Assembly: GCA_016218345.1 (NCBI GenBank)
Contig: JACREH010000018.1
Location: 1-42,020 of the forward strand
Source of the DNA: Gammaproteobacteria bacterium
GTDB taxonomy: Bacteria; Pseudomonadota; Gammaproteobacteria; Acidiferrobacterales; UBA6901
Length of the DNA stretch: 42,020 nucleotides
Reading direction: 5' to 3'
In this document: piece by piece, positions 13,644 through 27,222 of the stretch
Layout of the letters: every line of letters begins with the position of its first letter
How positions within the stretch are numbered: position 1 is the stretch's first letter
Notes under the pieces: model-generated
Told to the model about the DNA's origin: nothing
Seen by the model: only the letters and a program-made list of their open reading frames with translations
Databases searched by the model: none
Translations under genes and position numbers: made by a program

Positions 13644-14126
13644 ATGCGTCACCATAAAAGCGGTCGAAAACTGAACCGCACCAGCAGCAGCCGCGCCGCG
13701 ATGTTCAAGAACATGGCGGTTTCGCTCATTCAGCACGAGCAGATCTACACCACCGTGCCCAAGGCGAAGGAACTGCGGCGCGTGGCCGAACCCCTGATCA
13801 CCCTGGCGAAGATCTCGAACCTCGCCAACCGCCGGCTCGCCTTTTCGCGCCTGCGCGACCGCGACGCGGTCGGCAAGCTGTTCGACGTGCTCGGCGTGCG
13901 TTACAAGGACCGCCAGGGCGGTTATCTGCGTATTCTCAAGAGCGGCTATCGCGCCGGCGACAACGCCCCGCTGGCCCTGGTGCAGCTGGTCGATCGCTCG
14001 GCCGCGTCTGCCGAAGCGGCCGCACCGGTAGTGGAAGAAAAGGCCGCCGCCAAGAAAAAGCCGGCGGCCGCCAAGAAGCCTGCCGCTGCCAAGGCCGCCA
14101 AGACGAAAAAGGCCAAAGCCAAATAG
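13644..14126 (+). CDS. rplQ: 50S ribosomal protein L17 (bL17) with Ala/Lys-rich tail
   Basis: The first 120 or so residues are ordinary L17 ([29 protein letters not shown], then [25 protein letters not shown]). A low-complexity tail of about 35 residues follows, made of Ala, Lys and Pro ([20 protein letters not shown]), giving 160 residues rather than about 127. Similar basic tails occur on some bacterial ribosomal proteins; a role here is unknown. It is the last gene of the alpha operon. Confidence 0.97.
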
Positions 14127-14153: not shown

Positions 14154-14183
14154 AAAGGCCGGGTTCTCACCCGGCCTTTTCGT
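14154..14183 (+). terminator. Intrinsic terminator after rplQ
   Basis: AAAGGCCGGGT (14154-14164) pairs perfectly with ACCCGGCCTTT (14169-14179) over a TCTC loop, followed by TTCGTTT. It ends the long ribosomal transcript just before the composite repeat element begins. Confidence 0.9.
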
Positions 14184-14184
14184 T

Positions 14185-14795
14185 TGTATCGCCTAGCGGC
14201 GATAGATTTTATTCTCGCGGTTCCCGCACCGCAGGCGGGTTACTTTCGTTTCGGCGAAAGTAACCAAAGCCATTTTTCCCCATCGTCGCACCCCATACCA
14301 AAGCGCGAGGCGCTTTGGTATGGGGTGCCCTGCGCTCCTCGGTCAGCGAGGGGGTTTTTCGACAGTACGTCCGTGTACTGCGAAAAACGCGCGCATCCCA
14401 TGCGCGCCCCTAGCGGGCCTCATCCTCGTCGACCTCCGGTGCTCGGTGCGACTCAAGGGGCGAGACCCAAACCTAAAAAACCAACCCCAACCAAATGCTT
14501 TAAGGTTTTGACGTCGGTTTTGACGTTCCCCCCTTTCCGGCGCGCCGAGCATCGGAGGCCGAGGCGGATCAGGCCCGACAGGGGCGCGTATGGGATACGC
14601 GCGTTGGCCGCAGGACAGGGACAGTCCTGTCGGCCAACCCCCGCCTCGGCCGAGAAGCGCAGGGGATTTCGCGCCGGAGGGGAGGCGCTTCTTTGGGTAC
14701 TTTCTTGTCGCGACAAGAAAGTACCCCGCCGGCGGTGCGGGAACCGCAAGTATAAATTCCATCGCCGAAGGCGATGCTCGCAGGCGATAAAAATA
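14185..14795. repeat. Composite structured inverted-repeat element, copy 1
   Basis: This gene-free stretch is built of nested palindromes. From left: tip hairpin ATCGCC-N-GGCGAT; ACTTTCG/CGAAAGT hairpin; a perfect 19-bp stem (14288-14328); a bulged 14-bp stem GTTTTTCG-A-CAGTAC (14354-14388); GCGCAT/ATGCGC; an AT-richer centre (about 14465-14530); then a second arm with the same order of structures in mirror orientation, ending GTACTTTCTTGTCGCGACAAGAAAGTAC and another ATCGCC tip. ORFs across it have no family resemblance and are treated as spurious. Copy 2 lies inverted at 24847-25548. It has no transposase; a non-autonomous mobile repeat or structured RNA are both possible. Confidence 0.85.
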
Positions 14796-14813: not shown

Positions 14814-15539
14814 GTGATCGCCCTGTTCACCGATTTTGGCCTGCACGACCCGTACGTCGGCCAACTGCACGCGGTCCTGGCGCAACAGGCCCCAGGGGTG
14901 CCGGTCATCGATCTGTTTCACGCCGTCCCCAATTACGACATCCGCGCCGCGGCCTATCTGCTGCCGGCCTATACCGCGCTGTTTCCGCCCGAGACGATAG
15001 TCGTGTGTGTGGTCGACCCCGGGGTGGGGAGCGCGCGCCGGGCGGTGATGGTGCGCGCCGACGGGCGCTGGTATGTCGGCCCCGATAACGGGCTGTTTCA
15101 TGTCCTTGCCCAGCGGGCGGGTGCGGCCGATAGCCATGAAATTCTGTGGCGACCGGCGCAGCTGTCGGCGAGTTTCCACGGGCGCGATCTGTTCGCGCCG
15201 GTCGCGGCCACGCTGGCGCGCGGCGAAACCCCCCGGTCCGAACCGGCCGCGCTCACGCCGCCGCCCGGCGAATGGCCTGAGGATCTGGCCCAGGTCGTAT
15301 ATATCGACCACTACGGCAATGCCGTCACCGGCGTGCGCGCGGCGGGGGTGGATCGCAGCCGGAGAATTCGCGTGGACGGGCGGGTGCTGGCCAATGCGCG
15401 TACGTTTTCCGTTATTCCGGCGGGCCAGGCCTGCTGGTACGAGAATGCCAACGGCCTGATTGAATTCGCGGTCAATCGCGGCGACGCCGCCCAGACGCTC
15501 GGGCTGCGCCTGGGCGACAGCTTCGAAATCGAGCGTTAA
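14814..15539 (+). CDS. SAM hydroxide adenosyltransferase / SAM hydrolase (DUF62 family)
   Basis: The 241-residue product starts MIALFTDFGLHDPYVGQLHAVL from a GTG with AGGA upstream. The family markers LFTDFG, VVDPGVGSARR, VGPDNGLF and SFHGRDLFAPVAA are all present. Characterised members split S-adenosylmethionine to adenosine and methionine using water. The C-terminal half has YIDHYGNAVTGV and YENANGLIEFAVNRG, also typical. The gene begins about 20 bases after composite element copy 1, so its leader is largely element sequence. It is convergent with uvrA, with which no functional link is known to me. Confidence 0.88.
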   Translation: MIALFTDFGLHDPYVGQLHAVLAQQAPGVPVIDLFHAVPNYDIRAAAYLLPAYTALFPPETIVVCVVDPGVGSARRAVMVRADGRWYVGPDNGLFHVLAQRAGAADSHEILWRPAQLSASFHGRDLFAPVAATLARGETPRSEPAALTPPPGEWPEDLAQVVYIDHYGNAVTGVRAAGVDRSRRIRVDGRVLANARTFSVIPAGQACWYENANGLIEFAVNRGDAAQTLGLRLGDSFEIER

Positions 15540-24328: not shown

Positions 24329-24796
24329 ATGGCACGTGGTGTCAATAAAGTCATACTGGTCGGTCACTTAGGCAAGGATCCTGAAGTTCGTTATTCCCCC
24401 AACGGCGGCGCGGTCGCGAATATCACGCTCGCCACCAGCGAATCCTGGAAGGACAAAACCAGCGGCGAGAAGCAGGAGCGCACCGAGTGGCACCGGGTGG
24501 TGTTCTTCGGCCGTCTGGCCGAGATCGCCGGCGAATACCTGAAGAAGGGCGCGCAAATCTACGTCGAGGGCCGCCTCCAGACCCGCAAGTGGCAGGACAA
24601 GGAAGGCAAGGACCGCTACACCACCGAGATCGTCGCCAACGAGATGCAGATGCTCGGCAGCCGCGAGGGCCGCGGCGCGCCGCCGGCCGAGGCCGAGACT
24701 GAATCCGCCGGCGCCGCTGCGCCGCGTGGCGGCAACGGTGGTGGTTCCGCTCCCAAGAAGACCGCGGACGATTTTGACGACGACATTCCGTTTTGA
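24329..24796 (+). CDS. ssb: Single-stranded DNA-binding protein
   Basis: The 155-residue product has the OB-fold (residues 1-110; [66 protein letters not shown]), a short Gly/Pro/Ala-rich linker, and the acidic tip DFDDDIPF that recruits repair and replication partners. An AGGAGA ribosome-binding site precedes the ATG. A uvrA - yajR-type MFS - ssb grouping is familiar in Gammaproteobacteria; here four extra genes intervene. Confidence 0.98.
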
Positions 24797-24823: not shown

Positions 24824-24846
24824 GATCACGCTTAATTGTTCGTTTT

Positions 24847-25548
24847 TGTATCGCCTGCGGCGATAGTTTTTACTTGCGGTTCCCGCACCGCGGGCGGGGT
24901 ACTTAGACTCAGACCCTCCCTGGTCTTCGCCCTGACGGGCAGACCTTAACGCGGTCTGGCCAAATTCGCTCCCAGCGATTTTGTCTTGTCGCGACAAGAA
25001 AGTACCCAAAGAAGCGCCTCCCCTCCGGCGCGAATACCCCTGCGCTTCTCGACCGAGGCGGGGGTTGGCCGACAGGACTGTCCCTGTCCTGCGGCCAACG
25101 CGCGTATCCCATACGCGCCCCTATCGGGCCTGATCCGCCTCGGCCTCCGATGCTCGGCGCGCCGGAAAGGGGAAACGTCAACAGCCCAACCATCAAAACC
25201 ACAACATCTAAGCCCTAATGTTTTTGGGTGTGGGGTCAGTTTTTTTGGTTCGGGTGTCGCCCCCTTGAGTCGCACCGAGCACCGGAGGGCGGCGAGGATA
25301 AGGCCCGCATGGATTTATCATGCGGGGCGCGTATGGGATACGCGCGTTTTTCGCAGTACACGGACGTACTGTCGAAAAACCCCCTCGCCGACCGAGGAGC
25401 GGAGGGCACCCCACCCTAACGCGCAAAGCGCGTTAGGGTGGGGTGCGACGATGGGGAAAAATGGCTTTGGTGACTTTCGCCGAAACGAAAGTCACTCGCA
25501 CGCGCGGCGACACGCGCATGAAAAATGACATCGCCGGATGGCGATACA
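24847..25548. repeat. Composite structured inverted-repeat element, copy 2 (inverted, with internal insertion)
   Basis: This is the same element as copy 1 in opposite orientation, between convergent ssb and the acetolactate synthase-type gene. Arm A (about 24984-25175) is nearly identical to copy 1 arm A (roughly 5 differences in 200 bases by eye). Arm B (about 25255-25548) is more diverged but keeps every stem, including the perfect 19-bp stem at 25406-25446. The tips are ATCGCC-N-GGCGAT, with GTTCGT-like flanks on both sides. A 79-base insertion (24905-24983) splits the GTACTT/TCTTGTCGCGAC arm of the left hairpin. ORFs across it are considered spurious. Confidence 0.85.
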
Positions 25549-25584
25549 AAATACGAACAGCGGGCGTTGCCTACCCGGCAACGC

Positions 25585-27222
25585 TTACGTCGGGCAAACC
25601 AATTCCCCCAAATGCTGCGTGAGCTGCATGTTCTCCTCCCGCCCGATCGGGACATGAATGACCACCGGTACAGTCTGTTCGAAGCCCCATTTGAGCGCCG
25701 GGCCGAGTTCGTCGGCGGTGTGGATGTGCACGCCCCGGCAGCCGAACGATTCGGCGAGCTTGACCCAGTCGGGGTTGGCGAATTCGACGGCGGTGGCGCG
25801 GCCGTAGCGGTTGCGTTGTTTCCAGTCGATCAGGCCGTAGCGGCCGTCCTCCCAGACCAGCAGCACGAACGGCGCGTTGACGCGGACCGCGGTTTCCAGC
25901 TCCTGGATGTTCATGAGCGCGCCGCCGTCGCCGGCCACGGCCAGCACCTTGCGTTCCGGGTGCACCAGCTTGGCGGCGATCGCGCCGGGCAGGGCGATGC
26001 CCATGCTGGCGAAGCCGTTGGAGATGATGCAGGTGTTCGGCAGGTAGGTGGGGTAGAGGCGCGCGATCCAGATCTTGTGCGCGCCGACGTCGGAGATAAG
26101 AATGTCCTCGGGGCCGAGCGCGGCGCGTGCCTCGGCGATGACGCGCTGCGGCTTCATCGGGAACGAGGCGTCGTCGTGGAACAGGTCGATCTCGCGCTGG
26201 ATGGCGCCGTGCAGCTTGTGGATCGGCCCGCTTTTCCACGGTGTCAGTTGTTCCAGGATTTGCGACAGCGCCACGCGGCAATCGCCGTTGACCTCCTGCG
26301 CCGGCATGTAATAGCTGTCGACCTCGGCCGGGGTCTGATCGATGTGCAGCACCTTGATGCGTTTTTCCGGGTTCCAGCTACGCGGGGCGTATTCGACCAG
26401 GTCGTAACCGATGCTGATCACGACGTCGGCGCGGTCGAAGCCGCAATTGATGTAGTCGCGCGCCTGCATGCCGAGCGTGCTGAGCGACAGCGGGTGGTCG
26501 TGGGGGATGACGCCCTTGCCCATGAAGGTGTGGGCCACCGGAATATTGAGGGTCTCGGCGAAGTGGATCAGGTAGCGGCTGCTGTGGCCGCGGATCACGC
26601 CGTTGCCGGCCAGGATCAGCGGATACTTCGCGGTCTTGAGCAGCGCCACGGCGGCGTCGATCTGGCTCTTGCGCGCCACGTGCGCCTTGGGGTCGGCGGG
26701 GGCGAGCGGCACGACGTCCGCCGGCACCGCCTCCAGCGCCACGTCCTCGGGCAAGTCGATGTGGGTGGCGCCGGGGCGCTCCATCTGGGCGTGGCGGAAC
26801 GCCGTGCGCACCGCCTCGGCCACCGTCACCGAACGCTTGATCTGCATGTTCCATTTGGTGATCGGCTCGAACAACGACACCAGGTCGAGATATTGATGGG
26901 ATTTCTTGTGGGTGCGATCGAGGCTCGCCTGGCCGGTGATGGCCACGAGCGGCGCGCGGTCGCAATCGGCGTCGGCCACGCCGGTGACCAGGTTGGTCGC
27001 GCCCGGCCCGAGCGTGGCCATGCACACCCCGGCCTTGCCGGTGAGCCGGCCGGTGACGTCGGCCATGAACGCCGCGCCCTGTTCGTGGCGGGTGATCACG
27101 AGTTCGATCCCGGCCTCGGCCATGGCCTCGATCAGCTCCATGATCTCCTCGCCGGGCAGGGTGAAAACCCGGCGCACGCCTTCGTTCTTGAGGCAGGCGA
27201 CCAGGGCTTGAGCGGTGTTCAT
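25585..27222 (-). CDS. Acetolactate synthase-type ThDP-dependent enzyme
   Basis: The 545-residue product has the three-domain ThDP enzyme layout. The catalytic glutamate is Glu47 in ITRHEQGAAFMADVTGR. The middle FAD/DHS-like domain follows (PLILAGNGVIRG), and the C-terminal ThDP site has VAGDGGALMNIQELETAVR. Overall it matches the stand-alone catabolic type of acetolactate synthase that joins two pyruvates to acetolactate, and no regulatory small-subunit gene is adjacent. Another 2-oxoacid-dependent carboligase cannot be excluded. GGAG precedes the ATG. It is convergent with ssb across the composite element and divergent from the Crp-rhodanese gene. Confidence 0.85.
   Translation of the reverse strand: MNTAQALVACLKNEGVRRVFTLPGEEIMELIEAMAEAGIELVITRHEQGAAFMADVTGRLTGKAGVCMATLGPGATNLVTGVADADCDRAPLVAITGQASLDRTHKKSHQYLDLVSLFEPITKWNMQIKRSVTVAEAVRTAFRHAQMERPGATHIDLPEDVALEAVPADVVPLAPADPKAHVARKSQIDAAVALLKTAKYPLILAGNGVIRGHSSRYLIHFAETLNIPVAHTFMGKGVIPHDHPLSLSTLGMQARDYINCGFDRADVVISIGYDLVEYAPRSWNPEKRIKVLHIDQTPAEVDSYYMPAQEVNGDCRVALSQILEQLTPWKSGPIHKLHGAIQREIDLFHDDASFPMKPQRVIAEARAALGPEDILISDVGAHKIWIARLYPTYLPNTCIISNGFASMGIALPGAIAAKLVHPERKVLAVAGDGGALMNIQELETAVRVNAPFVLLVWEDGRYGLIDWKQRNRYGRATAVEFANPDWVKLAESFGCRGVHIHTADELGPALKWGFEQTVPVVIHVPIGREENMQLTQHLGELVCPT

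Follow-up and report, generated by a model that had tools for sequence, protein, structure and literature searches.

TwoAYGGAY is a probable RNA reported from gut metagenomes, Gammaproteobacteria and Clostridiales (accessible part of PMC2864571), which was later proposed, on the grounds of its loops, to bind CsrA (accessible part of PMC4333381). The corresponding Rfam model, RF01731, has a gathering score of 43 bits and belongs to clan CL00106, the CsrA-binding RNAs. The dispersed repeat described here is like TwoAYGGAY in that a closing helix encloses two neighbouring hairpins whose GGA loops lie on one strand. It is unlike TwoAYGGAY in that its units stand as divergent pairs in a dispersed palindrome and are accompanied by extra hairpins, M1–M4; the available text of the two reports describes neither such a palindrome nor M1–M4.

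The window, i.e. the whole stretch analysed, comprises 42,020 nucleotides from a Gammaproteobacteria bacterium (GenBank assembly GCA_016218345.1, contig JACREH010000018.1). It contains two perfect 19-bp stems, here called M4, with the sequences GCACCCCATACCAAAGCGC-GAG-GCGCTTTGGTATGGGGTGC in copy 1 and GCACCCCACCCTAACGCGC-AAA-GCGCGTTAGGGTGGGGTGC in copy 2. The first-pass annotation had noticed that four pairs differ between the two stems and that all four are compensated, and re-reading of the sequence bore this out exactly (pairs 9, 10, 12 and 15; the loops differ too). In 42 kb, chance falls far short of producing a perfect 19-bp stem closed by a 3-nt loop. Both stems proved to be homologous pieces of a dispersed element rather than lone hairpins, a 141-bp query from the element giving 45 local matches in this genome.

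The element is a mirrored repeat of roughly 600 bases, present in about two dozen copies in this genome, each of which consists of two mirrored, divergent units. From the end inwards, each half carries M1, M2, M3, M4 (left half only), helix B, which encloses M6 and M7, and the closing helix A. Read from the centre outwards, a unit begins with helix B around M7 and M6, continues with M4 and is closed by helix A, outside which lie M3, M2 and M1. The 5′ side of helix A closes the unit and overlaps the base of M4; M3 has the form ACTTTC..GAAAGT, followed by NNCCAAAG. Copy 1 is located between rplQ (ends at 14126) and a gene similar to SAM hydroxide adenosyltransferase (starts at 14814). Its termini are TTTGTATCGCC at 14183 and GGCGATAAAA at 14783, and its inverted arms are 14197-14253/14711-14767, 14328-14368/14624-14664 and 14369-14460/14531-14622. 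Copy 2 is located between ssb (plus strand, ends at 24796) and a convergent thiamine-enzyme gene (minus strand, stop at 25585), with termini TTTGTATCGCC at 24845 and GGCGATACAAA at 25540. An insertion separates the two M3′ arms in the right end of copy 2 (24845-25040); contigs C92, C91 and C71 have such an insertion too, with related sequence. The whole element, folded as single-strand DNA, has a z of −17 relative to shuffles. An overlapping 206-aa ORF was considered as a gene and rejected; a translated search found 0 relatives in 85,000 species genomes.

Table 1. Features of the two element copies in the window. R1 is a covariance model trained on the 37 unit cores of this genome only; all four cores listed are members of its training set.
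Feature	Positions	Strand	Description and basis
Element copy 1	14182..14792		about 610 bp, two mirrored units, intergenic
M1 terminal hairpin	14187..14204		TATCGCC/GGCGATA; direct reading
M2 hairpin	14217..14232		GCGGTTCCCGCACCGC; direct reading
M3 hairpin	14240..14263		TTACTTTCGTTTCGGCGAAAGTAA, class-wide anchor, then ACCAAAG; pattern and covariation
Helix A, 5′ side	14285..14291		GTCGCAC, complementary to 14446-14452; sequence inference
M4, copy 1	14288..14328		19-bp perfect stem, GAG loop, variable hairpin; read from sequence
Left unit core (helix B, M7, M6)	14328..14447	- (RNA-sense)	TwoAYGGAY-like; R1 135.7 bits
M6 hairpin	14354..14388	-	conserved unpaired base, ACGGAC loop; core alignment, structure
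M7 hairpin	14389..14407	-	GCGCGCAUGGGAUGCGCGC; core alignment, structure
Helix A, 3′ side	14446..14452		GTGCGAC; sequence inference
Right unit core	14544..14664	+	mirrored, divergent from left; R1 131.6 bits
M7′ hairpin	14584..14602	+	AUGGGAU loop; core alignment
M6′ hairpin	14603..14638	+	GTTGGCCGCAGGACAGGGACAGTCCTGTCGGCCAAC; core variants
M3′ hairpin	14695..14726		GGGTACTTTCTTGTCGCGACAAGAAAGTACCC; inverted-arm search
Element copy 2	24845..25550		opposite orientation to copy 1, intergenic
Other unit core of copy 2	25038..25158	-	R1 131.8 bits
Unit core beside M4 of copy 2	25274..25406	+	R1 128.3 bits
M4, copy 2	25406..25446		19-bp perfect stem, AAA loop; read from sequence

Thirty-seven unit cores from both halves of the element in this genome were aligned from centre to end and analysed by RNAalifold, which returned 41 pairs, 14 of them with two-sided changes. 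The triplet GGA is present in the M7 loop of all 37 cores and in the M6 loop of 36 of the 37, while the stems vary. Many M6 loops have the strict AYGGAY form (ACGGAC, AUGGAC), and M7 loops are mostly AUGGGAU or CCGGGAG. In M6 one base stays unpaired at a constant place, and the helices on either side of it change by compensation. On the RNA-sense strand, G-U outnumbers A-C by 21 to 5 (P = 0.0025, 37 cores), or by 13 to 5 when counted by distinct site and type (P = 0.10). The GGA loops on one strand, the preserved unpaired base and the one-strand wobble bias argue for selection on the core as RNA, and we therefore conclude that the core fold is maintained, most likely as RNA. Extra hairpins are nested in M6 or M7 loops at L012 (C27), L021 (C31), L025 (C59) and L011 (C34); such insertions extend a 35-nt hairpin to about 113 nt with the outer stem still paired.

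The first-pass annotation had taken the two stems of the window as direct evidence that the fold and not the sequence is kept, or else that the stem is renewed by palindrome copying, and had named a majority of uncompensated changes in a larger sample as the contrary outcome. Two copies alone are insufficient to decide the matter. When the 24 homologous stems of this genome were collected and their changes counted, compensated changes dominated and single-sided mismatches numbered five, so that the maintenance of pairing stands; the choice that the annotation left between selection and copying is settled only for the neighbouring core, and either may act on the 19-bp stem.

M4 is perfect in 19 of the 24 copies. 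The 5 mismatched pairs among ~455 are distributed singly over five copies (C.A in C34 and C91, G.T in C71, T.G in C26a and A.A in C98). The arms measure 17, 18, 19 or 20 bp and always change length together, and 23 of the 24 sequences are distinct. Among 11 stems of equal length, two-sided changes are seen at 7 of 19 pairs (21 cells, which are not independent events, as copies within one genome can exchange sequence), one-sided changes of the G-U type at none of the 19, and unpaired cells number 1 in 209; shuffles and slid registers came nowhere near this level of covariation. M4 pairing is clearly kept. Read on the RNA strand, the mismatches are two U-G, two A-C and one like-with-like; there is no G-U bias, and M4 itself therefore carries no RNA-level signature. 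Three reverse-complement pairs (GTT/AAC, GTA/TAC and TCT/AGA) occur among the 10 distinct loops, with a simulated P of about 0.03. In copies whose flanks are 1.7-3.4% different we counted 3.1 edits per M4 arm, mostly equal on both arms, a contrast that overstates the speed of M4 because the flanks are constrained themselves. The density of mismatches in M4 relative to the decay of conserved flanks was left out of the argument, since flank deviations are partly compensated changes too. A deletion between GCGCT direct repeats has removed most of the 3′ arm of one M4 copy (L034, C4, about 920-960), the outcome that palindrome slippage would give. The contig ends in C86, C83, C120 and C121, C57, C34 fall inside copies with identical M4; because contigs break within element copies, the assembly probably undercounts them.

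The M3 pattern was found in 48 of 369 gammaproteobacterial genomes, with the reversed control near zero. Its inner arms pair almost always, though the search left the interior free, and all four pair types occur at the first inner position; 20 M3 versions of equal length show two-sided changes in 5 pairs and one-sided changes in none. The order of parts is alike in 60 M3 loci from about 40 genomes. The M4 place in these loci, some 20 nt past CCAAAG and ahead of T(N)CCCT, is occupied in about half of them by a hairpin of 3 to 14 bp whose sequence is unrelated between genomes (for example, cttgtgtattcagt, tactggaatggaat and gtctgcgtacc). M4 is therefore a variable hairpin with free sequence, unusually long in this genome.

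The R1 model retrieved cousins in many other gammaproteobacterial genera with E-values, themselves rough, of 1e-22 to 1e-3, and whole-genome matches were obtained in 15 of 25 M3-positive versus 3 of 25 M3-negative genomes. In 44 cousin cores, two-sided changes are present in 40 of the 41 pairs (437 cells versus 129 in shuffled and about 85 in slid alignments), in an alignment that was fitted to the R1 structure and so leans to the model, slid registers amounting to ~1/5 of the signal. When hairpins were located without the model structure, 46 of 75 cousin loops contained GGA and one contained TCC. Many cousin loci carry two divergent cores, and the mirrored pair is thus general. R1 also matched 13, 3 and 2 places in G128, G081 and G136, respectively, though these genomes lack the exact M3 pattern; the copies in G128, at about 91 nt, are shorter and nearly equal in score, which suggests recent amplification. 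A search for close homologues found none in phages and, at full length, none in the family or order; plasmids yielded one 50-bp match. When the M3-M4 junction was searched with a more stringent DNA pattern, only one other genome matched, and the subtype of this genome is represented by one incomplete genome. Searching the literature, largely outside subscription titles, with M3 sequence strings retrieved no relevant paper.

Rfam scans gave no RF01731 match in the window or in the copies from its own genome, the window alone producing chance matches only; the copies described here are therefore distant relatives of TwoAYGGAY rather than members. Several cousin loci do score above the RF01731 threshold, and the link to TwoAYGGAY emerged through such cousins only; whole-genome searches likewise placed RF01731 above threshold in the cousin genomes G141, G201, G213, G295, G323, G081 and G108. 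The RF01731 and R1 matches overlap on the same strand in G181 (C7, 69234-69353/69255-69319), R1 and RF01731 coincide in strand and place at L198 (505-616/525-594), and in G295 single elements have one arm matched by one model and the second arm by the other. Through these linking sequences the unit is homologous to TwoAYGGAY. The CsrA consensus is RUACARGGAUGU, and M6 variants such as GUACAGGGAUGU are similar to it. The csrA gene was not found in this genome, which is 81% complete; each of the six family relatives has it, as do most of the tested genomes that bear the element.

The account that we consider probable is that the unit acts as RNA, that M4 is a sequence-free hairpin beside the core and that the element is a mobile, non-autonomous repeat and spread as such. 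Within it, the function of the unit is most likely that of a pair of CsrA/RsmA-type GGA hairpins, which every transcript that runs across the element, whichever its direction, would display. Among copies still active, selection would keep M4 paired and leave its sequence free, and paired substitutions in M4 may arise stepwise or in one step by template switching. Against this account speak the failure of RF01731 to match the units of this genome, the missing csrA in an incomplete assembly and the unbiased mismatches of M4. Another possibility, which we rank second, after selection that maintains pairing and may act on changes made by template switching, is that M4, with its loop of 2-4 nt, has its sequence repeatedly copied anew from one arm through template switching at replication, with no selection on M4 at all. 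Compensatory and loop-inversion changes are known to arise by template switching (PMC8794818), which predicts multi-base two-sided changes together with inverted loops. Both are hinted at in M4, where loops form reverse-complement pairs and edits are many relative to the flanks. Length changes are always two-armed, and the equal-length set is free of G-U intermediates. Such pure copying is nevertheless unlikely. Unchecked, it would erase the bulge of M6, whose invariant unpaired base survives amid compensated helices; the fold is conserved across genera; M3 shows two-sided changes, yet no inverted loop was seen by eye among the listed sites; and the evidence from loop pairs is weak.

Compensation could instead preserve DNA hairpins, and the mirrored layout, with both arms folding and terminal inverted repeats, as well as the dispersal of copies with different flanks, would suit a folded single strand or cruciform, whose role might be, for instance, that of substrate in the transposition of the element. 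We regard a DNA-level function as improbable, since GGA occupies the loops of one strand only and TCC almost never does, G-U exceeds A-C on the GGA strand, and no transposase, nor by eye any clear target duplication, is tied to the element. It is highly improbable that a few hairpin cassettes were shuffled by recombination so that the compensated differences are mostly whole-hairpin swaps. The variants of M6 and M7 are indeed few and are found recombined in various backgrounds, identical M4 sequences occur despite different outer flanks (C86/C83, C121/C57 and C92/C27), and recombination among copies also moves whole hairpins; but nearly every M4 sequence is distinct, and divergence across the class is impossible by swapping within one genome.

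A wider reading, which we offer tentatively and consider rather doubtful, is that each TwoAYGGAY-type RNA of Gammaproteobacteria is one half of a widespread, mobile and palindromic CsrA/RsmA-decoy element. In it the sequence-free M4 spacer would be rewritten rapidly through template switching, with selection holding the stem paired. If so, a selfish or domesticated repeat would seed a genome with tens of CsrA/RsmA decoy hairpins, shown whichever way it is transcribed. The findings themselves predict titration of CsrA/RsmA by intergenic repeats. They also place an orphan RNA family, in these bacteria, within a dispersed inverted repeat that carries two divergent units in every copy and can number tens of copies per genome. 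Since M6 has an obligatory unpaired base and the neighbouring M4 is sequence-free, the element also offers a natural multi-copy system in which selection and template switching could be separated in compensatory evolution.

Among mobile repeats, REP/REPIN sequences are likewise dispersed intergenic palindromes in inverted pairs that are non-autonomous (accessible parts of PMC3116915 and PMC2817692), whereas the element is about 600 bp long and multi-branched, with no REP foot tetranucleotide recognised. The single Y1_Tnp (RAYT-like) gene detected in the genome (G000 C92:18160-18504, L122) is flanked by its own inverted AAAAATGGGGACATTCTACTTTTCC repeats; a REP/RAYT origin was rejected because no element module flanks this gene. 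MITEs, according to the available text of PMC10969869, are short and present in many copies, with terminal inverted repeats and without their own ORF. The element likewise ends in inverted repeats, TTTGTATCGCC standing at both ends of copy 2 and being matched imperfectly at the right end in copy 1; no clear target-site duplication was seen by eye at the element, no parental transposon was found, and, unlike in MITEs, the internal fold is conserved by compensation across genera. The repetitive hairpin elements of mitochondria (PMC2800124) and the double-hairpin elements are similar as intergenic dispersed hairpin repeats and differ in being organellar and built of one or two simple hairpins. 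With the sponge RNAs CsrB, CsrC, RsmX, RsmY and RsmZ, the element shares arrays of GGA hairpin loops; these RNAs are single dedicated genes, whereas here about 40 unit copies are scattered in intergenic repeats.
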